From Zophobihabitans entericus (lineage in GTDB: Bacteria; Pseudomonadota; Gammaproteobacteria; Enterobacterales; Orbaceae), in the NCBI RefSeq assembly GCF_011745665.1, contig NZ_CP050253.1, forward strand, positions 781,418 to 845,417: a stretch of 64,000 nt of DNA, given 5' to 3'. Below the pieces are notes generated by a model. That model was given only the letters and a program-made list of their open reading frames with translations, was not told the origin of the DNA and searched no databases. Below are positions 39,946-52,289 of the stretch, piece by piece; the stretch's first letter is position 1, and each line of letters begins with the position of its first letter. Position numbers and translations under genes: made by a program.

Positions 39946-40395
39946 ATGCACTGTCCATTTTGCCATGCTGATGATACCAAGGTGATCGATTCCCGTTTAG
40001 TCGGTGATGGATTACAAGTGCGTCGTCGTCGTCAATGTACTGAGTGTAACGAACGATTCACGACATTTGAAGTTGCAGAACTTATTATGCCTGGCGTGAT
40101 CAAAAGCAGTAATATCCGGGAGCCTTTTAATGAAGAGAAGCTCCGCCATGGGATGCAAAAAGCACTGGAAAAACGTCCGGTGAGTACAGATGATATTGAA
40201 GCATCTATCAGTTATATCAAATCTAAGATTCGTGCTACTGGCGAGCGTGAGATTCCTGCCAAACAAATTGGTAATTTTGTGATGGAAGAGCTGAAACGTT
40301 TAGATAAAATTGCCTATATTCGTTTTGCTTCTGTCTACTTCAGTTTTGATGATATCGAACAATTTAGTAAGGAAATTGCTAAATTACAGGATTAA
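39946..40395 (+). CDS. nrdR: Transcriptional repressor NrdR
   Basis: NrdR represses ribonucleotide reductase genes and senses ATP/dATP through its ATP-cone. From ATG 39946 the product is 149 residues, exactly the E. coli length. The zinc ribbon is [17 protein letters not shown]...[16 protein letters not shown] (1-40) and the ATP-cone is [28 protein letters not shown] (about 50-135). Upstream in-frame starts run back into feoC and are rejected; TATGGAG precedes the chosen ATG. ribD follows as in E. coli. Confidence 0.97.
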
Positions 40396-40419
40396 TTTCT
40401 GTAGAGTGATGAGTTTAAG

Positions 40420-41550
40420 GTGAACAGATTGGATCAACACGCTCTTGATCTGGCATTTATGCGCAGAGCCATCGAAGTTGCAAAACAAGGTAGTTTTACG
40501 ACCACGCCTAACCCGAACGTCGGCTGCGTGATTGTAAATAAAAACAATCAAATTATTGGTGAAGGCTTTCATCACCAGGCAGGTAGCCCGCACGCAGAAG
40601 TCCATGCTCTTAAAATGGTGGGTAAAGCAGCCAGAGGAACTACTGTTTATGTGACGCTTGAGCCTTGCAGCCACTTTGGACGTACGCCTCCTTGTGCCAA
40701 TGCTCTGGTAGAGGCTAACGTAAAACGTGTTGTGATTGCGATGCAAGATCCCAATCCTCAGGTTGCCGGTAAAGGTATCGCCATTTTACAAGCTGCAGGT
40801 ATTGAGGTGGTATGTGGGGTGCTTGAGAATGAAGCAGAAAAAATTAATACCGGTTTTTTAAAGCGTATGCGCACCGGATTACCTTATGTACAGCTAAAAA
40901 TGGCTGCTTCACTGGATGGTAAAACGGCTATGGCTTCAGGTGAAAGTAAGTGGATTACTTCTGCCGTTGCCAGACAAGATGTACAGGTGCTGCGTGCCCA
41001 AAGCTCAGTTATTTTAAGTACCAGTGCAACAGTACTTGCTGATGATCCCAGTCTGACTGTCCGTCTTGATGATTTCCCGCAGATGTTAAAAGCGACTTAT
41101 CCGCTGGGCGAAGTTCGTCAGCCAGTACGTGTAATTCTTGATAGTCAAAATCGTTTAACGCTGAATGAGAAAGTCTTTAAACAAGACGGCGAGACCTGGC
41201 TGGTGCGCAAATCTGCTGCTAATTTAACACTTCCGGATAATGTAAAGCTGATTGTAGAAGATTCCCCTGATACACAAATTAATCTATCTCACTTAATGCA
41301 GATACTAGCTGAAAAGCAGATTAACACAGTATTTGTAGAGGCGGGTGCCAGTTTAGCCGGTGCTTTGGTTGAACAGAATCTTGTTGATGAACTGATTGTG
41401 TATCTGGCACCAAAGCTACTTGGTCATAATGCCCGGGATCTCTGTTTATTACCTCATCTCACACAGCTTAGTCAGGCGCCACAGTTCTCTTTTACTGACT
41501 TAAAACAGATTGGAGACGATGTTCGCCTGACATTAACACGAAAGGGATAA
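40420..41550 (+). CDS. ribD: Bifunctional riboflavin biosynthesis deaminase/reductase RibD
   Basis: RibD deaminates and then reduces the pyrimidine intermediate of riboflavin synthesis. The deaminase domain (1-145) has the zinc motif HAEVHAL and PCSHFGRTPPC. The reductase domain (about 150-376) begins YVQLKMAASLDGKTAMASGESKWIT. The start is uncertain: GTG 40420 gives 376 residues, while TTG 40429 has AAGG at a better distance and would give 373. ATG 40459 would cut into the first helix. E. coli RibD has 367 residues. The gap from nrdR is short (24 bp). The downstream ribE/nusB seen in E. coli are absent. Confidence 0.94.
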   Translation: MNRLDQHALDLAFMRRAIEVAKQGSFTTTPNPNVGCVIVNKNNQIIGEGFHHQAGSPHAEVHALKMVGKAARGTTVYVTLEPCSHFGRTPPCANALVEANVKRVVIAMQDPNPQVAGKGIAILQAAGIEVVCGVLENEAEKINTGFLKRMRTGLPYVQLKMAASLDGKTAMASGESKWITSAVARQDVQVLRAQSSVILSTSATVLADDPSLTVRLDDFPQMLKATYPLGEVRQPVRVILDSQNRLTLNEKVFKQDGETWLVRKSAANLTLPDNVKLIVEDSPDTQINLSHLMQILAEKQINTVFVEAGASLAGALVEQNLVDELIVYLAPKLLGHNARDLCLLPHLTQLSQAPQFSFTDLKQIGDDVRLTLTRKG

Positions 41551-41580
41551 CAGGTTTATTTACTCATAAAAATTTTAAAT

Positions 41581-41630
41581 AAATCAATGGGTTATATTTT
41601 TTTGTGGTTATAGGGCTAACTCATTGATTT
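41581..41630 (+). terminator. large inverted repeat after ribD
   Basis: AAATCAATGGGTTA (41581-41594) pairs with TAACTCATTGATTT (41617-41630) with one G-T position; the 22-nt loop contains seven T residues. It is a probable transcription end of ribD, although no T-run directly follows the stem. Confidence 0.5.
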
Positions 41631-41733
41631 TATAAGAAATTATCTTTTTTTTGTCATTCAAATCGAGATAACCTATTTTTATCGGTAAAACCTATTCTTT
41701 TTTATCTTTCTAATACTCTGTTGCAATTAATTT

Positions 41734-41749
41734 TGTGATCCAGTTCGCA
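41734..41749 (+). promoter_or_regulatory. candidate CRP site upstream of the DUF4310-4312 operon
   Basis: TGTGATCCAGTTCGCA matches the CRP consensus TGTGA-N6-TCACA in nine of ten defined positions. It lies about 190-210 bp before the first gene, in a 390-bp gap (41551-41940) that has no ORF I can support. Catabolite control would fit a carbohydrate operon. Confidence 0.45.
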
Positions 41750-41833
41750 ATTTCTGTCTGTTATTTTTTTCGTTAAAAATACTTTTTCATTTATTTTGTT
41801 TTTAATAATCAAAAAGTTAATCTTAATATTTAT

Positions 41834-41875
41834 TTTTTCCACTTTCATCTGGAAAAAGTCCGACTACACATAGTC
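41834..41875 (+). promoter_or_regulatory. two adjacent inverted repeats, candidate operator of the operon regulator
   Basis: TTTTTCCA (41834-41841) pairs with TGGAAAAA (41850-41857), and GACTA (41862-41866) with TAGTC (41871-41875). Together they sit 65-107 bp before the first gene. The partner regulator encoded downstream has a DNA-binding HTH rather than an RNA-binding CAT domain, so a DNA operator is more likely than a ribonucleic antiterminator. Confidence 0.4.
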
Positions 41876-41940
41876 AGTCAAATATTTTAGGGTTACGCTA
41901 TCGGAAGAGTAATTCTAATTATGGAGTTTAAAATTCAATC

Positions 41941-42276
41941 ATGAGTCAGGCCAAATTCAAAATGATTGCTGATGATTTAAATCCGGAAGTTGTGACTGAT
42001 CAGACGATCGAGATCATTAACGAATGGTTTAAAGAAGCCGGCGTTACCCAAAACGAAGTACAAAAAGCAATGTTACTTTCTCACGTTAAAGCTATGGTTA
42101 GTCGTGCTAAGACACTTGAGAAATTACCAGAAGTAGATCCAGAGATGTTTGATGAATTATCGGAAGAGTCAATGGCACTTGCTCGTAAAACAGTTGAGTT
42201 ATTTGATACCTTACCGGTAGAAGAAGCATATTTACTTGCCGTGCATTATGAAGTCGCGCGCGCAAATGAAGAATAA
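41941..42276 (+). CDS. small stand-alone PRD-domain protein
   Basis: This 111-residue acidic, all-helical protein looks like a single PTS regulation domain (PRD). It contains LLSHVKAMVSRA (near 47) and LLAVHYEVA (near 100), the two histidine-containing helices expected in a PRD. It has no DNA-binding part. It opens the operon, with SFCGS, DUF4312, DUF4311 and DUF4310 genes immediately after it. I infer a phosphorylation-sensing or accessory role for the membrane system. The family appears next to these DUFs in other bacteria, but I know of no assigned function. Confidence 0.7.
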   Translation: MSQAKFKMIADDLNPEVVTDQTIEIINEWFKEAGVTQNEVQKAMLLSHVKAMVSRAKTLEKLPEVDPEMFDELSEESMALARKTVELFDTLPVEEAYLLAVHYEVARANEE

Positions 42277-42306
42277 TTTGTTGTTTGATTTAGAGGGGTC
42301 AAAATT

Positions 42307-42675
42307 ATGAAAGAAATCGTTATTGTTATTGGTGACCGTATGGGTAAAGGCCAAAAAGTAGCTGCAGGTATTGAGTCTGTTGCTGGCTGTAAGGCTGTTG
42401 TTGTTCCGGGTATGGCTGCTGATATGAAACTTGGCGATGTAATGCAAAAAGAAAACGCTGATTTAGGTATTTCTTTCTGTGGTAGTGGCGGTGCGGGTGC
42501 ATTAACTGCAAAAAACAAATATGGTTATGAAGTCCGTTACGGTATGCGTTCTGTTGAAGAAGGCGAAACTGCGATCGCTGAAGGCTGTAAAGTTCTTGGC
42601 TTTGGTTTTATGGATACTGAAGAACTGGGTCGTCGTATTGCAACAGCTTACGTTAAAAAATACGGTAATCAATAA
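42307..42675 (+). CDS. glycine-rich SFCGS-family protein (DUF2620/YhfU-like)
   Basis: The 122-residue soluble protein starts MKEIVIVIGDRMGKGQKVAAGI and carries the family tag LGISFCGSGGAGALTAKNKYGY (about 57-78), with a single conserved Cys in a glycine-rich loop. The alpha/beta layout with a phosphate-loop-like cysteine recalls a PTS EIIB domain and E. coli YhfU (DUF2620). Whether the Cys is phosphorylated is unknown. Its stop codon overlaps the start of the next gene (TAATGA). Confidence 0.78.
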   Translation: MKEIVIVIGDRMGKGQKVAAGIESVAGCKAVVVPGMAADMKLGDVMQKENADLGISFCGSGGAGALTAKNKYGYEVRYGMRSVEEGETAIAEGCKVLGFGFMDTEELGRRIATAYVKKYGNQ

Positions 42676-42974
42676 TGAAAGAAAATCAACAGCTAACAGT
42701 AAGAGTACAAGGTACGGGTAATTCACGTGCGCGTGCTTTTGCCGCTGCACTTAGTTCAATTCAAAGAGAAATATTGAAAAGTAATAGCAATATGATTTTG
42801 CGTCTTGAACCACTTAATGTGGAAGTAGTTTCTGCGACAGAAAAGATCACCACAGAGAAGTTTCTTTTCTTCTTTTTACCAAGAGAAAAAGCACTGTGCA
42901 CGGTTATCTTAGATGTCACTGTTGATGTGTGTTTTGTTGATATGGGCAAAGTTAGTTTTACATCTATTAAGTAA
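42675..42974 (+). CDS. DUF4312-family small protein
   Basis: This 99-residue product has a start overlapping the SFCGS stop by one base, so the two are coupled. It begins MKENQQLTVRVQGTGNSRARAFAAALSSIQREIL, is mainly beta/alpha, and contains a basic FFFLPREKALCTVILDV segment. I recognise it as DUF4312 by context and sequence. The family is always found with DUF4310 and DUF4311 and is probably a cytoplasmic component of that membrane system. No catalytic motif is visible. Confidence 0.72.
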   Translation: MKENQQLTVRVQGTGNSRARAFAAALSSIQREILKSNSNMILRLEPLNVEVVSATEKITTEKFLFFFLPREKALCTVILDVTVDVCFVDMGKVSFTSIK

Positions 42975-42983
42975 GGATAACAC

Positions 42984-43745
42984 ATGGAAATATTAATTAT
43001 CGCATTTAAGTCTATCATTATTGGTGGGCTATGTGGATTTGGTGTAGGGGCAGGCGCAGCGCGTATGTTCCACGCACCAACTTATCAAGGTATGGGTGCG
43101 TTTCGTACTCTGGGCGAGTTAAACTCTTGTGAAGGTGACCCTGCGGCTCACTTCTCTTTAGGTTTAGGCTTCTTCTTCAATGCGTGGGCATCATCTGTTG
43201 CTGCGGGTTCTTTCACCCAGGACGTTGACCACCGTATCATCCCTAACTGGGGTGCAGCGTTACTACTAGTAAAAAATAAAAACGTCGCTGAAACATTACA
43301 TGATCCACGTAAAATGGCTATTGCCAGTACTATCGTGGGTATCTTAGTTGTTTTATTCTTAAATACGACAACTTCTGCAATTCCTGACACGTTAAAAGTG
43401 ACAGCAACAAATGTACTTGTTCCTGCTGCTAACCTACTTGTAGCGACAGTGATGCCAGTAATCTTCTGGTTAGCTGCTATCGATGCTGGTCGTCGTTCAG
43501 GCTTCTGGGGAACATTATTTGGTGGTCTTGCTCAATTAATCATGGGTAATGCTGTTCCGGGACTTGTTCTTGGTATCTTAATCGGTAAAGGCGTGGATGA
43601 TAGTGGCTGGAACCGAGTAATGAAAATGATGTTAGCTGCGGTAATTATTTTGTTTGTTCTGAGTGGGTACTTCCGTGGATTTGATGCGAAATTAATCAAA
43701 TCGTTCCAGGATAGCCTTTCATACTGGTTTACTGCCAGAGCGTAA
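42984..43745 (+). CDS. DUF4311-family multi-spanning membrane protein
   Basis: The 253-residue protein has about six hydrophobic segments. It has an N-terminal glycine-rich GGLCGFGVGAGAARMFHAP, then MGAFRTLGELNSCEGDPAAHFSLGLGFFFNAWASSVAAGSF (a conserved polar re-entrant-looking stretch, about 33-75). Later segments span about 110-130, 140-160, 175-200 and 210-230. This pattern of amphipathic hairpin loops is compatible with a transporter core. Together with DUF4310 it would form the channel. It resembles the N-terminal half of the larger E. coli YhfT only in gross layout. Confidence 0.72.
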   Translation: MEILIIAFKSIIIGGLCGFGVGAGAARMFHAPTYQGMGAFRTLGELNSCEGDPAAHFSLGLGFFFNAWASSVAAGSFTQDVDHRIIPNWGAALLLVKNKNVAETLHDPRKMAIASTIVGILVVLFLNTTTSAIPDTLKVTATNVLVPAANLLVATVMPVIFWLAAIDAGRRSGFWGTLFGGLAQLIMGNAVPGLVLGILIGKGVDDSGWNRVMKMMLAAVIILFVLSGYFRGFDAKLIKSFQDSLSYWFTARA

Positions 43746-43783
43746 TTTAGGCATAACAAACATTATTATTTAGGAAGGTTATT

Positions 43784-44431
43784 ATGACAGAAGTAAGAAA
43801 CAATAGTTTTTGGTATGCTGACTGGGCATTCCCAATTCTTTGCGGTATTTTATCTGCAGGTATTTTTGCCGGTACTCATACATTTTATGTATATGGTATT
43901 GGTGCATTCAATGAAATCGCATTCGTTGCGATGTTAAAATCTGGTATGACAACAGGTGATTACGGTGCAGTTGCTGCATTTGGTGCGAGCTTCTTATTTG
44001 CTCGTGTTATCGAGGGTTCTTTAGTTGGTATTCTTGATATCGGTGGCTCACTACAAACAGGTATCGGCCTTGGTGTTCCTGCTTTACTATTAAGTGCTGG
44101 TATTGTTCTGCCAATTGAGAACTTTGCTGTATCTTTAGTAACAGGTGGTGGACTGGGTGTTGCTGTTGGTTTGGTTATCATCTTAATCCGTAAAGTAACG
44201 ATTAATCAGGAAGGTGGTTCTACCTTTGGTGCTGACGTAATGATGGGTGCAGGTAACGCATCTGGTCGTTTCTTAGGCCCTATGATCATTTTATCAGCGA
44301 TGGTAGCGTCTATTCCAATTGGTTTAGGTTCACTACTTGGCGCATTACTATTCTACGTGTGGAAAAAACCAATTACTGGTGGTGCTATTTTAGGTGCGAT
44401 GGTATTTGGTGGTATCTTCCCAATGATGTAA
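43784..44431 (+). CDS. DUF4310-family multi-spanning membrane protein
   Basis: A 215-residue, very hydrophobic protein with six or so membrane segments and many glycine-rich turns (VTGGGLGVAVGL, GGSLQTGIGLGVPALLLSAG). It starts after a 38-bp gap with AGGAAGG as ribosome-binding site. The family is known only by association with DUF4311 and DUF4312. I infer the second half of a two-subunit permease. It is the last gene before an internal hairpin that separates transport from catabolic genes. Confidence 0.72.
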   Translation: MTEVRNNSFWYADWAFPILCGILSAGIFAGTHTFYVYGIGAFNEIAFVAMLKSGMTTGDYGAVAAFGASFLFARVIEGSLVGILDIGGSLQTGIGLGVPALLLSAGIVLPIENFAVSLVTGGGLGVAVGLVIILIRKVTINQEGGSTFGADVMMGAGNASGRFLGPMIILSAMVASIPIGLGSLLGALLFYVWKKPITGGAILGAMVFGGIFPMM

Positions 44432-44436
44432 CAAAA

Positions 44437-44465
44437 AAGAAGTCCTGCTCAGGCAGGGCTTCTTG
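44437..44465 (+). terminator. hairpin inside the operon between DUF4310 and amidohydrolase genes
   Basis: AAGAAGTCCTGC and GCAGGGCTTCTT (44437-44448 and 44453-44464) form a 12-bp stem with a TCAG loop, followed by GACCTTTT. The T-tract is short, so partial termination or mRNA processing is likely, giving more transporter than enzyme mRNA. Confidence 0.65.
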
Positions 44466-44531
44466 ACCTTTTCAATATAATTGAATCTTTTATATAAGTA
44501 CTTTTATATAAATAACAAAGCGAGCGTAACT

Positions 44532-45659
44532 ATGTATGATTTAATTCTAAAACAGGCAAAGCTTATTGATGGTAAAGTCGTTGATATTGCGGTTGCAAAC
44601 GGCAAGATTGCAGAAATTGGATCAGTTAGTTTACCGGCGAAAAAGAGTATAGATTTAGCTGGCAAACATTTTGTGAGTGCTGGTTGGATTGATGCTCATG
44701 CTCACGTATTTGAACTATCACCAATCTATCATGATGAACCTGATTTAGCGGGTGTTGCTGCAGGGGTTACTACTGTGATCGACGCAGGTAGTGTTGGTGC
44801 TGATGAGATTGATCGTTTCTATCAAATTACCCGTAATGTAAAGACTAACGTTTATGCATTCTTAAATATCTCCAGAATCGGTGTGATTCGTCAAAATGAA
44901 CTGGCAGATATGGCTGATATCGATCAGAAATTATTTGATGAAGCGATGGCTAAACATCCTGACTTTATTGTCGGACTTAAGGCCAGAATGAGTAAAAGCG
45001 TCGTTGGTGAGAATGGAATAACACCACTTGTTCGCGCTAAAGAGATGCAGAAGAAAACCGGATTACCACTGATGATTCATATTGGTAACAATCCGCCGGA
45101 TTTAGATGATATTGCCGATTTATTAACAAAAGGCGATATTATCACTCATTGCTTTAATGGTAAGCCAAACCGTATTTTAAATCAGGAAAATACCATTCGT
45201 GATTCAATCATGAAAGCACTGTCACGTGGAGTGGTGCTTGATGTTGGACATGGTGGCGAGAGCTTTAGCTTTAAAGTCGCAGAGCGTGCTAAAGAACTGG
45301 GTATTTACCCGATGACAATCAGTTCTGATATTTACTCTAAGAATCGTCTAAATGGCCCGGTTTATAGCCTAGCTAATGTTATGACGAAGTTCTTATGTAT
45401 TGACTATACTAAACAGCAAATTTTAGATTGCGTAACTTCTCATGCAGCAGAAATGCTACATCTGAAAAATAAAGGGCAAATCAAAGTTGGATTTGATGCG
45501 GACTTTACGATTTTTGATATTCTACCTGAAACTATCACACTATCGGACTCCGAAGGGACGAAACGAGAAAGCAAAGAAAAATTTGTGCCACTAGCAGCAA
45601 TTGTTGCTGGTGAAACTATTGTAACTAAAGAAGGTGAAGAAAATGGCCTCAGTTTATGA
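44532..45659 (+). CDS. COG3964-type metal-dependent amidohydrolase/deacetylase
   Basis: The 375-residue enzyme belongs to the amidohydrolase superfamily: small N-terminal beta domain, then HAHVFE metal ligands (about 57-62). The putative carbamylated or metal-bridging lysine is in VGLKARMSKS, and further ligands are in MIHIGNNPP, ITHCFNG and the catalytic Asp in MTISSDIYS. The closest recalled relatives are Enterococcus EF0837 and Agrobacterium Atu3266, often misnamed dihydroorotase or adenine deaminase and shown to hydrolyse N-acetyl or O-acetyl substrates. Here a deacetylase acting before the ammonia-lyase is the natural reading. ATG 44532 is preferred to 44481, since the family starts at MYDLILKQAKLIDG. 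It overlaps the next gene by 17 bp. Confidence 0.88.
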   Translation: MYDLILKQAKLIDGKVVDIAVANGKIAEIGSVSLPAKKSIDLAGKHFVSAGWIDAHAHVFELSPIYHDEPDLAGVAAGVTTVIDAGSVGADEIDRFYQITRNVKTNVYAFLNISRIGVIRQNELADMADIDQKLFDEAMAKHPDFIVGLKARMSKSVVGENGITPLVRAKEMQKKTGLPLMIHIGNNPPDLDDIADLLTKGDIITHCFNGKPNRILNQENTIRDSIMKALSRGVVLDVGHGGESFSFKVAERAKELGIYPMTISSDIYSKNRLNGPVYSLANVMTKFLCIDYTKQQILDCVTSHAAEMLHLKNKGQIKVGFDADFTIFDILPETITLSDSEGTKRESKEKFVPLAAIVAGETIVTKEGEENGLSL

Positions 45660-46758
45660 AAAATACGGTTTAAAGAAAGTTATTAACGCCTCTGGTCGTA
45701 TGACTATTCTTGGTGTATCAACACCTCGTCCGGAAGTGGTTGATACAGTTGCTCATGGCTTAAATGAGTATTTTGAAATGAAGGATCTGGTTGATAAAAC
45801 CGGTGAATATATTGCTAAGCTATTAAAAGTTGAGAATGCAGTGGTTGTGTCATGTGCATCTGCGGGTATTGCTCAATCTGTTGCTGCATTTATCGTTAAA
45901 GATGATATGGAGTTACTTTATAATCTACATTCATCTGAAAAATATGTGCCAAGAGAGATCATTGTTCCTAAAGGACATAACGTAAACTTTGGTGCTCCAG
46001 TGAGTACAATGGTTGAGCTTGGTGGTGGTATCGTGGTTGAAGCGGGTTATGCTAACGAGTGTAAACCTGAGCATATCGAAGCATTAATTAATCCAGATAC
46101 AGCAGCGATTTTATATATTAAATCTCACCACAGTGTACAAAAAAGTATGTTATCTGTAGCAGAAGCTGCAGCGATTGCTAAAAAACATGGTATTCCTTTT
46201 ATTGTTGACGCAGCGGCAGAAGAAGATCTGAATGCTTACTACAATACTGGTGCTGACCTTGTGATTTACAGCGGTGCTAAAGCGATTGAAGGCCCTACTA
46301 GTGGCTTAGTGATTGGCCGTAAGCAAGCAGTTGAATGGGTTAAAATGCAATCCAATGGTATTGGCCGTCCTATGAAAGTAGGTAAAGAAGGTATTCTTGG
46401 TTTTACCAAAGCTATTGAGCTTTATGTTCTTGATCCGAAAAAAGAAAGTGGTAAAGAAATGGTTGAGAAAATGACACCATTTATGGACAAGCTAAATAAA
46501 CTGAATGGTATTTCAGCTAAAGCGGTATGGGACGGTGCTGGTCGTGATATCGCACGTACTGAAATCTCTTTTGATGAGAAAGTCATTGGTAAAACAGCCA
46601 TTGAGATGGTTAAGTTGATGAAGCAGGGTGATACCGCTGTTTATTTCCGTGAATATAAAGCGAACGACGGTAAAGTCGATGCTGACGTAAGAAGCGTTTC
46701 TGCGGAACAACTTGATGTCATTTACAACAAAATTAAAAGTATTATTGAAGGAGCTTAA
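45643..46758 (+). CDS. dgaE: DgaE-like PLP-dependent ammonia-lyase
   Basis: This 371-residue, fold-type I PLP enzyme belongs to the SelA-like group (COG1921), whose studied member DgaE eliminates ammonia from D-glucosaminate-6-phosphate in Salmonella. Motifs are YGLKKVINASGRMTILGVSTPRPEV, the cofactor region VVVSCASAGIAQSVAAFI and IPFIVDAAAEEDLNAY, and the Schiff-base lysine in DLVIYSGAKAIEGPTSGLVIG (about residue 211). I start at ATG 45643, since AAGG precedes it, rather than the GTG at 45634. The symbol is by family; the true substrate may differ because the associated transporter and deacetylase are not those of the dga operon. Confidence 0.85.
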   Translation: MASVYEKYGLKKVINASGRMTILGVSTPRPEVVDTVAHGLNEYFEMKDLVDKTGEYIAKLLKVENAVVVSCASAGIAQSVAAFIVKDDMELLYNLHSSEKYVPREIIVPKGHNVNFGAPVSTMVELGGGIVVEAGYANECKPEHIEALINPDTAAILYIKSHHSVQKSMLSVAEAAAIAKKHGIPFIVDAAAEEDLNAYYNTGADLVIYSGAKAIEGPTSGLVIGRKQAVEWVKMQSNGIGRPMKVGKEGILGFTKAIELYVLDPKKESGKEMVEKMTPFMDKLNKLNGISAKAVWDGAGRDIARTEISFDEKVIGKTAIEMVKLMKQGDTAVYFREYKANDGKVDADVRSVSAEQLDVIYNKIKSIIEGA

Positions 46759-46763
46759 AAATA

Positions 46764-47504
46764 ATGCAACTTAGTCCAAAATATTATAAAGACAGAGTCT
46801 GTCTAAACGTACTAGCAAATTCAGTTGAAAATGCAAAAGAAATTTATGATGCTGCAGAAGGTTATGTGGTGGTTGGCGTGTTATCTAAAAATTACCCAGA
46901 TAATGCTTCAGCGATTGAAGATATGAAGAAATATGCTGCTGCAATCAACAATGCTATTTCTGTTGGTCTTGGTGCTGGTGATCCAAATCAGTCTAAAATG
47001 GTATCTGAAATTTCTGCTAAGTTACAACCACAGCATATCAATCAGGTCTTTACCGGAGTGGCAACAAGCCGTGCGCTAGTGGGTCAAAATGAAACTGTTA
47101 TCAACGGCTTAATTTCTCCAACGGGTAAAGTGGGTTTAGTTAAAGTATCAACGGGTCCACTGAGTTCAAAACGTCCGGATGGTGTGGTACCGACTGAAAC
47201 TGCCATTGCGATGCTAAAAGATATGGGCTGTAGCTCAGCTAAATTCTTCTCTATGGACGGTCTAAAATATCAGGCTGAATATGAGCATTTAGCAAAAGCA
47301 TGTTTTGAACAAGACTTCTATCTTGAACCAACGGGTGGTATTGATTTGAATAACTATGAGACTATTTTAAAAATTGGTCTTGATGCTGGTGTTAAGAAAA
47401 TCATTCCTCATATTTATAGTTCAATTATCGATAAAGCAACAGGTAAAACACGTCCGGAAGATGTACGTAAATTACTTGAAATCACTAAGAAATTAGTCGG
47501 TTAA
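46764..47504 (+). CDS. dgaF: DgaF-like 2-dehydro-3-deoxy-phosphogluconate (KDGP) aldolase
   Basis: The 246-residue product is a TIM-barrel aldolase like DgaF, which cleaves the keto-deoxy sugar acid phosphate made by DgaE to pyruvate and glyceraldehyde-3-phosphate. Conserved stretches are KDRVCLNVLANSVENAKEI, VGLGAGDPNQSKMV, GVATSRALVGQNETVINGLISPTGKVGLVKVSTGP and FYLEPTGGIDLNNYETILKIGLDAGVKKIIPHIYSSIID. A Schiff-base lysine would be in GLVKVSTGP or VKKIIPH. It lies five bases after dgaE and ends before a strong terminator. Confidence 0.85.
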   Translation: MQLSPKYYKDRVCLNVLANSVENAKEIYDAAEGYVVVGVLSKNYPDNASAIEDMKKYAAAINNAISVGLGAGDPNQSKMVSEISAKLQPQHINQVFTGVATSRALVGQNETVINGLISPTGKVGLVKVSTGPLSSKRPDGVVPTETAIAMLKDMGCSSAKFFSMDGLKYQAEYEHLAKACFEQDFYLEPTGGIDLNNYETILKIGLDAGVKKIIPHIYSSIIDKATGKTRPEDVRKLLEITKKLVG

Positions 47505-47508
47505 TCGA

Positions 47509-47546
47509 TAAAATAGGCGATATTGGGTATATATCGCCTATTTTTT
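47509..47546 (+). terminator. intrinsic terminator after dgaF
   Basis: AAATAGGCGATAT (47511-47523) pairs with ATATCGCCTATTT (47531-47543), a 13-bp stem with a 7-nt loop, followed by further T residues. It ends the catabolic operon before the regulator. Confidence 0.9.
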
Positions 47547-47589
47547 GTGTTTTAATGGTTCTGTCTGTCATTTAGCCAAGAGGTAACTA

Positions 47590-49524
47590 ATGGTTCTGTT
47601 TCCTTATCAGCGATTAGCTTACTTATTTGATACGATTCGGGCTGAAGTTCTTCCGCAGGAGGAGTTGGCTAAGCGGTTTTCTGTGTCCACCCGTACGATT
47701 CGTACCGATATTTTAGCGCTAAGTGAGATCCTACAACGCTATGGTGCTCAGATTCAGTATGAGCGCGGTGTTGGTTATCAGTTAATCATTTCTGATGAAG
47801 CCTTATTTAAAACACTACCGCATCAACAAGAACAATTAAAAGTTATCCCAAGAACGAGTAAAGAGCGAGTGCTTGCTTTACTGGTTCACTTCTTAACTCA
47901 CCCTCAGTCGATTAAATTAGATGATATTGCCGATGAATGGTTTATCAGCCGCAGTACATTACAAGCGGATATGGCTGAGGTCAGAGAGTATTTAGAAAAA
48001 TATCATCTCTCTTTTGATAAGCGTCCTCATTATGGGATGAAACTACTTGGTGCTGAAACATCAATTCGTGCCTGTTTAACCGATATTTTCTGGCAGATGT
48101 ACTCAGCCGAAGATGAACGAGCGATCAGCCAGTTACAACAAGATGTGTTAAACGATATTGATTTAACTTTCCTTGAAAAAATTCTACAAAATCGTTTTGA
48201 ACGATTTGATATTAAAATCACACCGGAAGGCCAGCGTTATTTGCTTTATAGTTGTGCTATTTCAATTGTTCGTATTACTACCGGACAAGAGCTACTTGAA
48301 TTTGAAGCTAACGATGTTGATGAGGTGGTAAAGAAGGCTGCGATTGAAATTGCTGAAGGATTTACTTATTTCCTTGGTACAGAAGTTTCGCAAGCAGAGA
48401 GTAATTATTTAAGCGTGCAAATTGCGGCGCGCTGTATTACTGATCACTCTAATGTTATGAGTGGTATGCAGCAAAATAGCGATGTGCTTGTCAGCCATCT
48501 GCTGGATTATATTAACAGTACCTACAACTATGATTTACGCCGTGATGAAAAACTCAAAAGTGATCTCTCTATTCATTTAGCTTCTATGCTGGCGAGAATT
48601 AAGTATCAGATTCGCTCATCTAATCCACTGCTTGATGAAATTAAGCAGTACTATCCATTTGCCTATGATATTACGCTCTCAGCCATTACAAATACTGATT
48701 TGTATATCGACCACAAATTGAGTGAAGATGAGATTGGCTATTTAACAGTACATATCGGTGTGGCACTGGAACGTAATTATAATGTGGGTTATGAACGTCA
48801 TCCGCATGCACTATTGGTGAGCGATTCGGGTAATGCTACTTTACGTATGATAGAAGCCAAAATTAAACGTGATTTCCCGCAGATTCAAATTGTGAATACA
48901 CTATCACTGCGTGAATATGAGTTGTTGTCAACAATTGAAGAAGATTTTGTTATTACTACGGTAAGATTATCAGAAAAAAATAAACCGATTGTAAAAATTG
49001 CACCATTCCCGACACCTTATCAGTTAGAGCAATTAGGGCGTCTGGCGATGATCGATCGTACGCGTCCTTATATTTTAGAGAAATTCTTTAGTGAAAAATT
49101 CTTTATGGTATTAAAAGAAGAGACGACACAAGAAGAATTATTTAAAATGGTCAGTCAAAAACTGGCTGATGAAGAATATATTGATGAAGAGTTTTATCCG
49201 TCTCTGGTAGAGCGGGAATCAATCGTTCCAACAATGCTTGGTGAAGGCATTGCTATTCCACACACTGTTGGCTTATTAGCCAAAAAAACAACCGTTGTCA
49301 CAATACTTGCTCCTAAAGGTATTGCCTGGGGACATGATAAAAATGAGATGGCTTATGTCATTTTCTTACTTGCGATCTGCAAAGAGGAATATGAAGAAGC
49401 AATGGCAATTTATAGTCTGTTTGTTAACTTTGTAAAAGAGAAAGCGACCAAACGATTATTAAATAGCCAGTCATTTAATGATTTTCAGGCCATTGCGAAA
49501 GATAGTTTAGGGCGAATTGCTTAA
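47590..49524 (+). CDS. PRD-containing transcriptional regulator (HTH-HTH-PRD-PRD-EIIB-EIIA)
   Basis: The 644-residue protein has the MtlR/ManR-type architecture. A DeoR-like HTH (LPQEELAKRFSVSTRTIRTDI, about 21-41) comes first, then a second HTH (LDDIADEWFISRSTLQADM, about 117-135). PRD1 (about 200-290) and PRD2 (about 295-395) follow, with His in DLSIHLASMLARI and YLTVHIGVALER. Then come an EIIB-like domain (ALLVSDSGNATLRMIE) and a fructose-type EIIA domain with phospho-His in EGIAIPHT (about 550). The EIIB loop has Ser where an active cysteine would be expected. There is no CAT RNA-binding domain, so it should be a DNA-binding activator tuned by HPr/EII phosphorylation. It has its own terminator-separated unit directly after the operon it probably controls. 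Confidence 0.88.
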   Translation: MVLFPYQRLAYLFDTIRAEVLPQEELAKRFSVSTRTIRTDILALSEILQRYGAQIQYERGVGYQLIISDEALFKTLPHQQEQLKVIPRTSKERVLALLVHFLTHPQSIKLDDIADEWFISRSTLQADMAEVREYLEKYHLSFDKRPHYGMKLLGAETSIRACLTDIFWQMYSAEDERAISQLQQDVLNDIDLTFLEKILQNRFERFDIKITPEGQRYLLYSCAISIVRITTGQELLEFEANDVDEVVKKAAIEIAEGFTYFLGTEVSQAESNYLSVQIAARCITDHSNVMSGMQQNSDVLVSHLLDYINSTYNYDLRRDEKLKSDLSIHLASMLARIKYQIRSSNPLLDEIKQYYPFAYDITLSAITNTDLYIDHKLSEDEIGYLTVHIGVALERNYNVGYERHPHALLVSDSGNATLRMIEAKIKRDFPQIQIVNTLSLREYELLSTIEEDFVITTVRLSEKNKPIVKIAPFPTPYQLEQLGRLAMIDRTRPYILEKFFSEKFFMVLKEETTQEELFKMVSQKLADEEYIDEEFYPSLVERESIVPTMLGEGIAIPHTVGLLAKKTTVVTILAPKGIAWGHDKNEMAYVIFLLAICKEEYEEAMAIYSLFVNFVKEKATKRLLNSQSFNDFQAIAKDSLGRIA

Positions 49525-49549
49525 TTTACTATACGAGTAGAGTGAAAAT

Positions 49550-50143
49550 ATGAAAAAAAGAATACTATATTTAGCTGCCGTTATTTTTATTGCTATCGGC
49601 GTGATGTTTGCTCTGTTATCAGAGAAAGTTCAGTATGAGCCAGTAGGGCAACCAAATGCTCCAGTTATTGAGTCCGGTTCCACCCAACCAACGATTGATT
49701 CTGATGTTATTCCATCGCGATCGACTGGTACTTCTTCTCAGAGAAGTTCATCTCAGGTTTTGGTTCCTGGTGGGGGTTTATTGGTACATGAGCAAGCGGG
49801 TGGGCACCTGATTGAGCGCCATGTTGGTAGAACAGAGCAGGAGCTCAAAGAGCGTGTCAATTCTGATGGTGTGAGAACGGCCTCCAGTTTTTATGATTTA
49901 GTGACTGCAGAACAAGCGGTTAGCCAGGCGATTACTTATAATAAAGCCAGAATTGATAACTACCTGAAAAATAAACAAAGAGAATATTTAGCGATCAATT
50001 ATCGTTCGCCAACAGCGGTAGGTTATAGTTATTCCCGTGGTTGGCCATCCATCAAAGAAGTCTATGGTGTTAAAGTGATTATTGGGCAAGATAACAGAAT
50101 GCCTATTGGTTATAAAATTATTACCGGATATCCAGAGCAATGA
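49550..50143 (+). CDS. membrane-anchored or secreted RNase A-type toxin (CdiA-CT-like domain)
   Basis: The 197-residue protein has an N-terminal signal-anchor (KKR then hydrophobic residues 5-23, no lipobox) and a Ser/Pro/Thr-rich linker (about 30-72). The C-terminal domain (73-197) resembles the RNase A-fold toxin domain found at CdiA C-termini. Matching features are LLVHEQAGGHLIERHVGR, ELKERV, ASSFYDLVTAEQAV, IDNYLKN and the end VKVIIGQDNRMPIGYKIITGYP. By recall of the Yersinia kristensenii toxin (catalytic His, Arg 11 residues later, and Thr-x-Tyr near the end), His91, Arg102 and Thr192/Tyr194 are the likely active residues here. It overlaps the downstream immunity-like gene by four bases (ATGA). 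No CdiA or CdiB is nearby. Confidence 0.8.
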   Translation: MKKRILYLAAVIFIAIGVMFALLSEKVQYEPVGQPNAPVIESGSTQPTIDSDVIPSRSTGTSSQRSSSQVLVPGGGLLVHEQAGGHLIERHVGRTEQELKERVNSDGVRTASSFYDLVTAEQAVSQAITYNKARIDNYLKNKQREYLAINYRSPTAVGYSYSRGWPSIKEVYGVKVIIGQDNRMPIGYKIITGYPEQ

Positions 50144-50433
50144 GAAAACAATTCCCAGCACTAGCCTATTTTACTGAATGTTATCTGCATCAGGATTTTG
50201 ATTTACTCTTTGGTGGCTTTCCTGGTGTATTAGCGGCTTATCTTGACCAAGAGACATCAGAAGAACAGAAACAATTGATTCAGGATATTGAAGATATACT
50301 GACAAGTGATATGTCAGAAGTGGAACTGGAACATCTGTTTTTTGAAAAGTTTGATTGTAATTATGACTACCTACAACATTTTACAGATAGTCGGGCATGG
50401 CTAAGTTCCATTTTAGAGCAAATAAAGCCATAG
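50140..50433 (+). CDS. CdiI-like immunity protein for the RNase toxin
   Basis: This 97-residue acidic cytosolic protein starts inside the toxin stop (ATGA overlap), the usual coupling of toxin and immunity genes. The N-terminal FPALAYFTECYLHQDFDLLFGGFPGVLAAYL resembles the CdiI_2 group of contact-dependent-inhibition immunity proteins (YLHQDWD-type motif). The remainder is helical and rich in Glu/Asp, suited to covering a basic RNase active site. Function is inferred from sequence pattern and position. Confidence 0.78.
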   Translation: MRKQFPALAYFTECYLHQDFDLLFGGFPGVLAAYLDQETSEEQKQLIQDIEDILTSDMSEVELEHLFFEKFDCNYDYLQHFTDSRAWLSSILEQIKP

Positions 50434-50486
50434 CATTTATGTGGCGAATTAGTCAGCGAATTGATCGCTAAAGCGTGATTTCCTAA

Positions 50487-50523
50487 TTGACTAAATAGGT
50501 ATTTAAGGGTAATATGCGCGCCT
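50487..50523 (+). promoter_or_regulatory. strong sigma-70 promoter of yceD-rpmF with GC-rich discriminator
   Basis: TTGACT (50487-50492), a 17-bp spacer and TAATAT (50510-50515) form a near-consensus promoter. It is followed directly by GCGCGCC, a GC-rich discriminator typical of ppGpp/DksA-inhibited rRNA and ribosomal-protein promoters. The predicted start (about 50522) leaves only two or three bases before the yceD ATG. Confidence 0.75.
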
Positions 50524-50524
50524 T

Positions 50525-51043
50525 ATGCAAAATAGATTACCCTTAACAATTGACCCGGTCAAAACAGCGCAAAAACGGTTGGATTATGTAGGTATATATC
50601 CAAGAAATGTAGCTGTGCGCCTTATTGAGTCAGTTGCGAGTGTGGATAGTGATATCAAGGCAGAGATTTCATTTGCGATTGATTCACAAAAGTTATGTGG
50701 CATTCATATTAAAGCTGATGCAGAAGTGAGTCTGACGTGTCAGCGTTGTGGTAAGCCATTTAAACATACTATCCACATAAAGAATGATTTCAGTCCTGTG
50801 AAAACTGATGTACAGGCGGAAGCATTACCAGAGCGCTACGAGCCCGCTGAACTTAATGAGTTTGGTGAGATTGATTTAGTGGCAATGATTGAAGACGAAA
50901 TGATTCTGTCATTACCAATAGCGCCGGTTCATGATATAAAACACTGTGAAGTGTCAGAAGCGGACATGGTGTTTGGTGAAATTCCTGAAGAGGAAGCAAA
51001 ACCAAATCCCTTTGCCGTATTAGCAAGTTTAAAGAACAAGTAA
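50525..51043 (+). CDS. yceD: 23S rRNA accumulation protein YceD (DUF177)
   Basis: YceD is needed for normal 23S rRNA levels and is nearly always encoded before rpmF. The 172-residue product (E. coli 173) has a CxxC pair in [10 protein letters not shown] (about 73-76) and the strongly conserved [34 protein letters not shown] and [10 protein letters not shown] ending. The family start [22 protein letters not shown] fixes ATG 50525. This start has no Shine-Dalgarno because the promoter lies directly before it. Confidence 0.95.
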
Positions 51044-51062
51044 AGAGTGAGGAGTAAAACCC

Positions 51063-51230
51063 ATGGCTGTTCAACAGAATCGTAAAACTCGTGCAAAACG
51101 TGGTATGCGTCGTTCACATGATGCACTAACTGTAGCAAATATTTCAGTAGATGAGTCAGGTAAAACTCATTTACGTCACCATGTGACCGCTGATGGTTAC
51201 TATCGTGGCCGTAAGGTTATTGCTAAATAA
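51063..51230 (+). CDS. rpmF: 50S ribosomal protein L32
   Basis: The 55-codon gene encodes [20 protein letters not shown] followed by [10 protein letters not shown] and a C-terminus [20 protein letters not shown], clearly L32 (E. coli 57 residues; here two residues shorter in the middle). GAGGAG precedes the ATG. It lies 19 bp after yceD and before plsX, the standard order linking ribosome and lipid synthesis. Confidence 0.97.
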
Positions 51231-51242
51231 TTAGGTGATCGT

Positions 51243-52289
51243 TTGGACAATCTAACGGTTGCGTTAGATGCTATGAGCGGGGATTTTGGTCCTCGCGTAG
51301 CCGTTCCTGCTGCTCTACAAGCACTGACCCAACATCCTAATCTGCATATTCTTCTCGTTGGTAATCCAACCGAGATAGAATCTCTTTTATCTCAAAAAGA
51401 GAACTCAAAGTCATCTGATATCTTATCCCGCTTAACCATTATTGAATCCACTTCTGTTATTACTCATGATGCGAAACTTTCTGTTGCTATTCGGCATAGT
51501 CAGGGGAGCTCAATGCGAATTGCTCTGGAACTGGTTAAAAGTAAGAAAGCTCAAGCTTGTGTGAGTGCCGGTAATACTGGTGCTTTAATGGGACTAGCGA
51601 AATTATTAATCAAACCTTTACCTGATATTGATCGTCCTGCACTTATGGCGGTATTGCCTGCTCTCAATCAAGGGAAAACAGTGATCCTTGATTTAGGTGC
51701 TAATGCTGAGTGTGATAGCAATATGCTGGTGCAATTTGCCGTCATGGGATCAATTATGGCGGAAAATATTTTAGGTATTGAAAGCCCACGCGTTGCACTG
51801 CTTAATATTGGTGAAGAGGAAGTCAAAGGATTAGACAGTATCAGAGCTGCAGCTGCAACTCTCAGAGCTCATCACAAGATTAATTATATTGGTTATCTGG
51901 AAGGTAATGAATTACTGACTGGAAAAACTGATGTTTTGGTTTGTGATGGTTTTGTAGGCAATGTGACGCTAAAAACAGTAGAAGGTTTAATTGAGATATT
52001 CTTATCGTCACTCAGGTTAACGATTACGCGTAAATCCTGGTGGATGAGAATCCTTGGTATTTGGTTACAACGCCGGGTATCAAAAAACTTTGGTCATTTA
52101 GATCCACAGCAGTATAATGGGGCATGTTTGCTCGGGCTTCAGGGTACAGTAATTAAAAGTCATGGCTCAGCAAATCAAAAAGCGTTTGTAGCGGCGATTG
52201 AACAGGCGATACAATCGATCGAAAAAAATATTCCTGACAGGATAGCGATGAGTCTCTCATTAGCATTACCAAAGAGTGATAATAGTTAA
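51243..52289 (+). CDS. plsX: Phosphate acyltransferase PlsX
   Basis: PlsX makes acyl-phosphate from acyl-ACP for phospholipid synthesis. The 348-residue product reads [28 protein letters not shown] from a TTG start at 51243 with AGGTGA upstream. Family motifs are [52 protein letters not shown] and [24 protein letters not shown]. Its stop overlaps the fabH start by one base (TAATG). Confidence 0.96.

Follow-up and report, generated by a model that had tools for sequence, protein, structure and literature searches.

The utilisation of D-glucosaminate by Salmonella depends on the dgaABCDEF operon (Miller et al. 2013, as cited in PMC9529869 and PMC4987338). It combines a mannose-type EIIABCD with an ammonia lyase and a KDG-6-P aldolase, and its regulator DgaR is of the sigma-54 LevR type. 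A second described relative is the set of NCBIfam hypothetical equivalogs TIGR03577-03583 ('EF_08xx/AHA_39xx'), represented by EF_0829-EF_0839 of Enterococcus faecalis and AHA_3910-3917 of Aeromonas hydrophila. In E. coli, the yhfSTUWXYZ-php operon encodes a lone PRD (YhfY), a small Cys-x-[TS]-G protein (YhfU) and a hydrophobic protein (YhfT). PLP enzymes and the putative hydrolase Php lie nearby, and the annotation of this stretch lists no regulator of the EIIA type.

The locus studied here lies in the window, that is, the whole 64-kb stretch of DNA that was analysed, where eight closely spaced plus-strand genes (41941-47504) follow in the order PRD-SFCGS-DUF4312-DUF4311-DUF4310-amidohydrolase-DgaE-like-DgaF (Table 1). 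Profile searches and coordinates bore out the genes, strand, positions and family calls of the initial annotation, and all eight proteins scored above the curated cut-offs of their families (TIGR03582, 03577, 03578, 03580, 03579, 03583, 01437 and 03581). From the PRD gene to the regulator, the intergenic gaps are +30, -1, +9, +38, +100, -26, +5 and +85 bases. The +100 before the amidohydrolase holds for an ATG start at 44532 and becomes +49 with the TTG at 44481; the ATG is most likely the start, because the matches to PDB 8wzy and TIGR03583 begin at residues 18-19 of the longer reading. The set had been called uncharacterised, which is true of its five transport-type proteins, as these are hypothetical in the databases and without assigned function in NCBIfam. 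The set itself, however, is already catalogued: the cluster is a member of the EF_0829-EF_0839 group, from which it shows no structural difference.

Table 1. Features of the locus, with coordinates in the window
Feature	Coordinates	Strand	Evidence or remark
CRP-like palindrome TGTGATCCAGTTCGCA	41734..41749	+	Upstream of operon, predicted
Lone PRD protein (EF_0829 family), 111 aa	41941..42276	+	TIGR03582 108.5 bits, cut-off 69.4; PF00874 E 1.6e-4
SFCGS protein (EF_0830 family), 122 aa	42307..42675	+	PF14272 E 4e-57
DUF4312 protein, 99 aa	42675..42974	+	PF14189 E 2.4e-29
DUF4311 membrane protein, 253 aa	42984..43745	+	PF14188 E 6e-116; hydropathy
DUF4310 membrane protein, 215 aa	43784..44431	+	PF14187 E 6e-100; hydropathy
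COG3964 amidohydrolase/deacylase (EF_0837 family)	44532..45659	+	TIGR03583 529 bits, cut-off 432
DgaE-like PLP-dependent ammonia lyase (EF_0838 family)	45634..46758	+	TIGR01437 568.6 bits; aligns with DGL 7lc0
DgaF-type KDG-6-phosphate aldolase (EF_0839 family)	46764..47504	+	NF047796 390.4 bits, cut-off 300; PF07071 E 1.5e-106
Intrinsic-terminator-like stem-loop	47510..47544	+	14 pairs, T tail; ends eight-gene operon
MtlR/LicR-type transcriptional regulator	47590..49524	+	Pfam: HTH_11, Mga, PRD, C-terminal EIIA_2

The comparison of gene neighbourhoods covered Gammaproteobacteria, Chromobacterium/Iodobacter-type bacteria and Firmicutes. The order PRD-SFCGS-DUF4312-DUF4311-DUF4310 (hereafter, the module) was kept in nearly all loci compared, from Enterobacterales to Chromobacterium/Iodobacter and Firmicutes, a recurrence that is far beyond chance. 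One Providencia assembly (L039) has SFCGS fused to DUF4312; a frameshift or an assembly error may explain this fusion, which was given no weight.

The CRP-like palindrome upstream of the operon is the sole one-mismatch match to TGTGA-N6-TCACA within the window, and most of the Gilliamella loci tested have a site with one mismatch at about -145 to -207. Across the whole set of loci, such sites occurred in 23% of cases vs. 1.2% in shuffles, the loci being related rather than independent. No RNA element was found by Rfam in 40000-51500, and a promoter scan gave a count equal to that in shuffled sequence. The PRD regulator reported after the cluster is indeed present; it proved to be a multi-domain protein of the MtlR/LicR type, unlike DgaR, and it is probably a separate transcription unit, because the predicted terminator stands between it and the DgaF gene. 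A PRD-type regulator is found close by in nearly all loci compared.

The window's cluster resembles Salmonella dga in its lyase, its aldolase and its control by a PTS-type regulator. It differs in having an additional COG3964 deacylase, and it bears the module in place of the mannose-type EII, just as had been proposed. The deacylase aligns with PDB 8wzy, 2ics and 2ogj, and its predicted metal ligands are H73, H75, K167, H200, H223 and D283 (numbered from TTG 44481). In the lyase, the His-His pair, the Lys, the carboxylate Arg and the triple-Arg phosphate cluster, which have been placed around DGA-6-P (PMC9529869), are all kept as H165, H166, K216, R229, R308, R339 and R353 in the alignment to 7lc0; R229 is a Lys in some relatives. 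The lyase reached 361.9 bits against the DgaE equivalog NF047797, i.e., below the cut-off of 600, and so its substrate may differ, for instance as a stereoisomer of the DgaE substrate. The aldolase exceeds its equivalog cut-off and matches PDB 3m0z (E 3e-119). The conserved active-site residues and the score of the aldolase support the suggested route of deacylation, ammonia elimination and aldol cleavage. Moreover, ten Enterobacterales loci carry a lactonase-family protein inside the cluster (PF10282 where tested), which points to an aldonolactone or aldonate as the substrate.

As to the module, the PRD is normally a regulatory domain. Its two histidines in the lone PRD protein, H48 and H102, were kept in 82 of 82 homologues. 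HPr, which is only permissive evidence, was found in all 10 module-bearing genomes checked, and in one locus (L117) ptsH-ptsI lie just downstream of the module. Together with the PTS-type regulator, these findings uphold the PTS connection seen in the initial annotation. A search of the set for an EIIA-like carrier found no stand-alone EIIA gene, the only EIIA_2 domain being that of the regulator. A natural fusion joins the PRD to SFCGS in L116. The PRD is joined to the regulator in Vagococcus, with fusion to the regulator's C-terminus recorded for L085.

The SFCGS protein had been regarded as EIIB-like. Its AF2 model is confident (pLDDT 91.4), and, on the evidence of this model, the protein is of the RpiB/LacAB-type Rossmann-like fold across the whole chain. 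RpiB gave the best Foldseek matches and, in the top rows of the structure comparison, Z scores of about 9-12.6 with 112-119 residues aligned at an rmsd of 2.7-3.1, whereas lactose IIB (3nbm) ranked only 35th (Z 7.4), among background rows, and an EIIB fold was rejected. One SFCGS homologue matches PF02502 just below the cut-off (E 3.5e-5, 24.2 vs. 24.7 bits). In EIIB proteins, the loop that carries the phospho-Cys comes directly after beta-strand 1, whereas in the model C58 follows the third strand (E53-56). C58 belongs to a CGSGGAG motif and was kept in 80 of 80 homologues. As enzymes, RpiB proteins rely on a base Cys in CG[ST]G, a ring-opening His/Asn and C-terminal phosphate-binding Args. 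SFCGS keeps the Cys and Ser/Gly of this active-site loop, but its 122-aa chain lacks the C-terminal segment and has A91-E92 at the His-Asn positions (ungapped alignment of the window's SFCGS with L121), so that the RpiB/LacAB enzyme residue set is incomplete; a transport-type operon likewise sets it apart from these isomerases. A profile alignment with YhfU (DUF2620) scored 29-33 over 109 columns vs. at most 17.9 in 20 shuffles, which indicates that SFCGS is homologous to this E. coli protein, and YhfY matched the PRD family at P 4.9e-6 (hhalign). The enzymes of the yhf operon are different from ours, and YhfT gave no significant alignment with DUF4310 or DUF4311.

DUF4312 has no hydrophobic segment above the threshold, being soluble by hydropathy, and conserves an E61..FLFFFLPR motif. 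In DUF4311, the polar loop R27-H83 is near-invariant and includes Cys49; C49, E45, D52, H56, D80 and H83 are invariant across 86 sequences, as are H32, E77, D85 and N158 of DUF4310 across 87. Compared by hhalign with few sequences, the two membrane proteins gave nothing above noise against each other, mannose EIIC/EIID, lactose EIIC, KdgT, DcuC or YhfT, and their profiles found only chance matches among PDB sequences. The AF2 model of DUF4311 (pLDDT 52.8) was too poor for a fold comparison. Weak E. coli-type matches to PF14188 were traced to a helix rich in glycine within a DjlA-like protein and were dropped.

The reading that we favour, with a likelihood a little short of even, is that of a catabolic operon under CRP and PTS control, whose substrate is an N-acylated 2-amino-2-deoxy aldonate (N-acetyl-D-glucosaminate-like) taken up by means of the module. 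DUF4311 and DUF4310 would form the membrane permease, with DUF4312 as an accessory soluble subunit. The lone PRD would take phosphate from HPr and would drive or gate uptake together with SFCGS, whose Cys58 lies in a CGSG loop resembling the active-site loop of RpiB. In this way the module would do the job of DgaABCD of Salmonella, though without an EIIB fold in SFCGS. The substrate would enter as the 6-phosphate or be converted to it at once. The enzyme steps are shown by homology: the metal-dependent deacylase strips the acyl group, the lyase turns the 6-phosphorylated amino sugar acid into 2-keto-3-deoxygluconate-6-phosphate and ammonia, and DgaF cleaves the former to pyruvate and glyceraldehyde-3-phosphate. 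In favour of this reading are the conservation of the operon in Proteobacteria and Firmicutes, the kept residues of the lyase, PRD and SFCGS, the DgaF score, HPr and the ptsH-ptsI neighbours, the PRD-SFCGS fusion, the lactonase-family protein and the CRP-like site. Against it stand the fold of SFCGS, the lack of sequence similarity between DUF4310/4311 and the EIIC and EIID sequences compared, the usual regulatory role of PRDs and the fusion in Vagococcus, and the low score of the lyase against the DgaE equivalog. Two Lactobacillales (L085, L115) whose module has no such enzymes beside it also count against it. A bolder version is somewhat unlikely: a PTS permease class unlike the known EII families, with SFCGS/YhfU as EIIB, the lone PRD as EIIA and DUF4310-DUF4311 as the membrane pair, shared by E. 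coli K-12 yhf with YhfT as a different hydrophobic protein.

The alternative that survives best, although we consider it somewhat unlikely, is that DUF4310/4311(/4312) work as a secondary transporter of the usual kind. The role of the lone PRD would then be limited to tuning the regulator for induction control, and the substrate would be phosphorylated in the cell by a kinase encoded elsewhere, e.g., KdgK. No kinase gene was present in the module operons examined, but the window's genome has a KdgK orthologue (62% identity) that could supply the phosphate after uptake; the absence of KdgK was therefore rejected, for this genome, as a proof of phosphorylation on transport. KdgK orthologues also occur in three others (G405, G833, G834). 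The PRD-regulator fusion of L085 and the PRD-type regulators near nearly all loci fit this alternative as well, as do two Lactobacillales operons (L118, L149). In these, a lactose-type EIIC, a 6-phosphoglycosidase of the MupG type and a dedicated PfkB kinase stand in for the module beside the same deacylase, lyase and aldolase; set against the module operons without a kinase, this counts for the favoured reading too. On the other hand, four drafts with module and enzymes have no PfkB match (G564) or distant ones only (G827, G828, G460). The PRD-SFCGS fusion in L116, the phosphate-binding Arg cluster of the lyase, and the yhf operon, where a lone PRD and a homologue of SFCGS occur together and no PRD-EIIA regulator is annotated beside them, likewise argue against an ordinary transporter.

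It is less probable still that SFCGS is a pathway enzyme rather than part of a transporter, i.e., an isomerase or epimerase derived from RpiB/LacAB that acts on the imported sugar acid phosphate (e.g., a C2 epimer) with Cys58 as the base. The fold and the conserved Cys-Gly-Ser-Gly loop would suit such a role, and an open-chain aldonate would do without the ring-opening His; the Ala91-Glu92 pair and the shortened C-terminus speak against it. Moreover, SFCGS stays with the other four transport-type genes in two Lactobacillales (L085, L115) where the enzymes are not beside the module, and the alternative amidohydrolase-DgaE-DgaF operons lack it. It is very improbable that the module is instead a complex in the membrane that serves as sensor or enzyme for a metabolite, with another permease feeding the pathway enzymes. 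DUF4310 and DUF4311 showed no link to known transporters in the hhalign and PDB sequence searches, but the module takes the place of EII permeases in otherwise equivalent operons, and both of its polytopic proteins are strongly conserved, with polar residues that do not vary.

The literature searched yielded no paper naming the DUFs or the SFCGS protein. The RpiB/LacAB fold of SFCGS and its homologue YhfU link the set to another orphan operon, in the genetically tractable E. coli K-12, and make a question testable, namely whether a lone PRD and a cysteine protein of isomerase fold can serve as PTS phosphocarriers. According to a genomic survey (PMC11325843), none of the Gilliamella genomes was found to have genes that would metabolise glucosaminate further. 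The DgaE-like/DgaF pair, present in the window's assembly and in fifteen Gilliamella assemblies, is, judged by homology, a plausible route for glucosaminate that this survey overlooked. Taken together, the nine-gene cluster probably serves the uptake and breakdown of an amino-sugar acid via a five-protein system.

The eight plus-strand genes and the downstream PRD regulator of the initial annotation were all present with the expected families; the eight genes form an operon, and the stretch is flanked by what we take, by eye, to be ribD-like genes on one side and yceD/plsX/fabH-like genes on the other. A terminator separates DgaF from the regulator, so the latter is probably its own transcription unit. 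The CRP-like palindrome is the sole one-mismatch site within the 64-kb window; most Gilliamella loci carry a comparable site between about −145 and −207, and sites with at most one mismatch occur in 23% of all loci, which are related and not independent, vs. 1.2% in shuffles. Gilliamella also provides the nearest named loci by DUF4311 (87–91% identity, best among the matches listed); the window's own genome is 2.67 Mb.

Features of the operon and of the loci compared with it
Feature	Position	Strand	Basis or context
CRP-like palindrome	41734-41749		one mismatch
Lone PRD	41941-42276	+	Pfam/NCBIfam match
SFCGS	42307-42675	+	Pfam/NCBIfam match
DUF4312	42675-42974	+	Pfam/NCBIfam match
DUF4311	42984-43745	+	Pfam/NCBIfam match
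DUF4310	43784-44431	+	Pfam/NCBIfam match
COG3964 amidohydrolase	44532-45659	+	Pfam/NCBIfam match
DgaE-like lyase	45634-46758	+	Pfam/NCBIfam match
DgaF	46764-47504	+	Pfam/NCBIfam match
Terminator, 14 pairs + T tail	47510-47544	+	3′ of DgaF
Regulator HTH-Mga-PRD-EIIA_2	47590-49524	+	Pfam
yhfU	L133:7349-7702		E. coli K-12, SFCGS homologue
yhfY	L133:11061-11423		E. coli K-12, lone-PRD homologue
PTS EIIC-MupG-type-amidohydrolase-DgaE-DgaF-PfkB operon	L118:8760-15534; L149:4228-10881		two Lactobacillales

The operon is conserved. At least 80 loci emerged from scanning 84,980 species genomes, and the proposed neighbourhood comparison revealed the order PRD-SFCGS-DUF4312-DUF4311-DUF4310-amidohydrolase-DgaE-DgaF almost everywhere among the loci listed, with the regulator upstream or downstream depending on the locus; in several Firmicutes, the amidohydrolase lies 5′ of the PRD, with a HAD hydrolase 3′ of DgaF. 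Of 398 genomes sampled evenly in each phylum, 12 carried DUF4311 in the window's phylum, and 7 had it above cut-off in that of Vagococcus. In two Firmicutes loci (L112:1831-5188 and L114:15377-18731), the module adjoins what we read by eye as a KdgT-like permease, a DUF1537-like kinase and a PdxA-like dehydrogenase, probably another sugar-acid pathway. The Xenorhabdus loci, including L040, L052 and L082, retain the cluster without DgaF, which is absent from the whole genome too in the three searched (G400-G402); the pathway there must either finish elsewhere or be decaying. The broken fragments in two Arsenophonus endosymbionts (L063, L087) are a sign of ongoing loss. Since every family has a matching model in NCBIfam's EF_0829-EF_0839/AHA_3910-3917 set, the genes are already catalogued, though unexplained. 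Neither the DUFs nor the SFCGS protein are named in any paper of the literature searched; EF0839 was assigned, as speculation, to amino-sugar import and processing (mBio 2020, PMC7701990).

At the level of sequence, the deacetylase, lyase and aldolase assignments held up. DgaF exceeds its equivalog cut-off (390 vs. 300 bits); the lyase, a DgaE family member by TIGR01437, falls under its own (362 vs. 600). Aligned to the Salmonella enzyme 7lc0, the lyase conserves the His-His pair, the PLP lysine and the carboxylate Arg, and this and the family alignment show that it also retains three Args matching those that surround the substrate phosphate in Salmonella (PMC9529869). The amidohydrolase, whose close relatives are PDB 8wzy and 2ics, conserves its metal ligands. 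Enzymes of COG3964 reportedly (Ornelas et al. 2013) hydrolyse acyl groups of 2-hydroxy/2-amino D-acids. As for the substrate, we infer its identity: this specificity would fit an N-acyl 2-amino aldonate, and a lactonase-family protein inserted between DgaF and the regulator in ten Enterobacterales loci (L059, L072, L074, L078, L086, L089, L091, L092, L093, L095; PF10282 in 4/4 tested, most with a signal-peptide-like N-terminus) likewise suggests an aldonate or the corresponding lactone. No Gilliamella genome was said to carry genes for further glucosaminate metabolism (PMC11325843); the DgaE-like/DgaF pair at 45634-47504, found in other Gilliamella as well, contradicts this statement.

We tentatively propose that an N-acyl amino-sugar acid is taken up in a PTS-driven way, such that phosphate would pass from HPr to the PRD and then to SFCGS, and DUF4310/4311 would carry out transport; that the five-protein set has no transport role seems very improbable. 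The putative PTS-type residues are invariant: both PRD histidines in 82/82 homologues and SFCGS Cys58 in 80/80. HPr was found in all 10 module-bearing genomes tested. In one locus (L117:4283-6397), the module and its HAD hydrolase are directly followed on the same strand by ptsH and ptsI, the gaps being about 249 and 72 bases; since a PTS_EIIC is also nearby, they may serve several systems. L116 has a PRD-SFCGS fusion, and in L085 the PRD is joined to the regulator. A secondary transporter with a regulatory PRD is the next reading, and a rather unlikely one. A KdgK orthologue is present in the window's genome. PfkB matches were absent from G564 and only distant in G827, G828 and G460, so that KdgK is not obviously the phosphate source in these four draft genomes at least.

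The SFCGS protein had been taken for EIIB-like, which its predicted structure did not bear out. The confident AF2 model (pLDDT 91.4; five strands and five helices) groups with RpiB/LacAB along the entire chain (Foldseek, VIA-align; Z up to 12.6), whereas lactose IIB, at Z 7.4, is among the background. The profile comparison with RpiB/LacAB scored 33, with reversed or shuffled controls reaching no more than 17.3, and one homologue matches PF02502 (E 3.5e-5). The Cys-Gly-Ser-Gly loop is the counterpart of the RpiB catalytic loop. Because Ala91-Glu92 occupy the ring-opening His/Asn positions and the C-terminal segment of RpiB is absent, SFCGS is, on this model, an RpiB-fold protein without the full residue set of the enzyme. 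A role as an enzyme is improbable.

SFCGS is also a homologue of E. coli YhfU (DUF2620), with 109 columns aligned at a score of 29-33 (shuffles at most 17.9), and the lone PRD of the yhfU operon, YhfY, matches the PRD studied here. In sequence comparison, YhfT did not match DUF4310/4311; the yhf operon looks like a sister module carrying a different hydrophobic protein, YhfT.

Furthermore, in Vagococcus (L085, genome G398) and in genome G649 (L115), the five-protein module lacks the amidohydrolase-DgaE-DgaF genes beside it; in both genomes these adjoin a PTS_EIIC permease, a MupG-type 6-phosphoglycosidase and a PfkB kinase (L118, L149), where the substrate is perhaps a glycoside of an amino-sugar acid. 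The kinase would join the operon in the version where phosphorylation by the PTS would fall on a different sugar of the glycoside taken up. A further DgaE-DgaF pair in G398 (L119) adjoins genes that we read by eye as mannose-type EIIA/B/C/D. Since the five-protein module, the PTS_EIIC with MupG and the mannose-type-like EII each accompany such enzymes, the enzyme set partners three transport modules.
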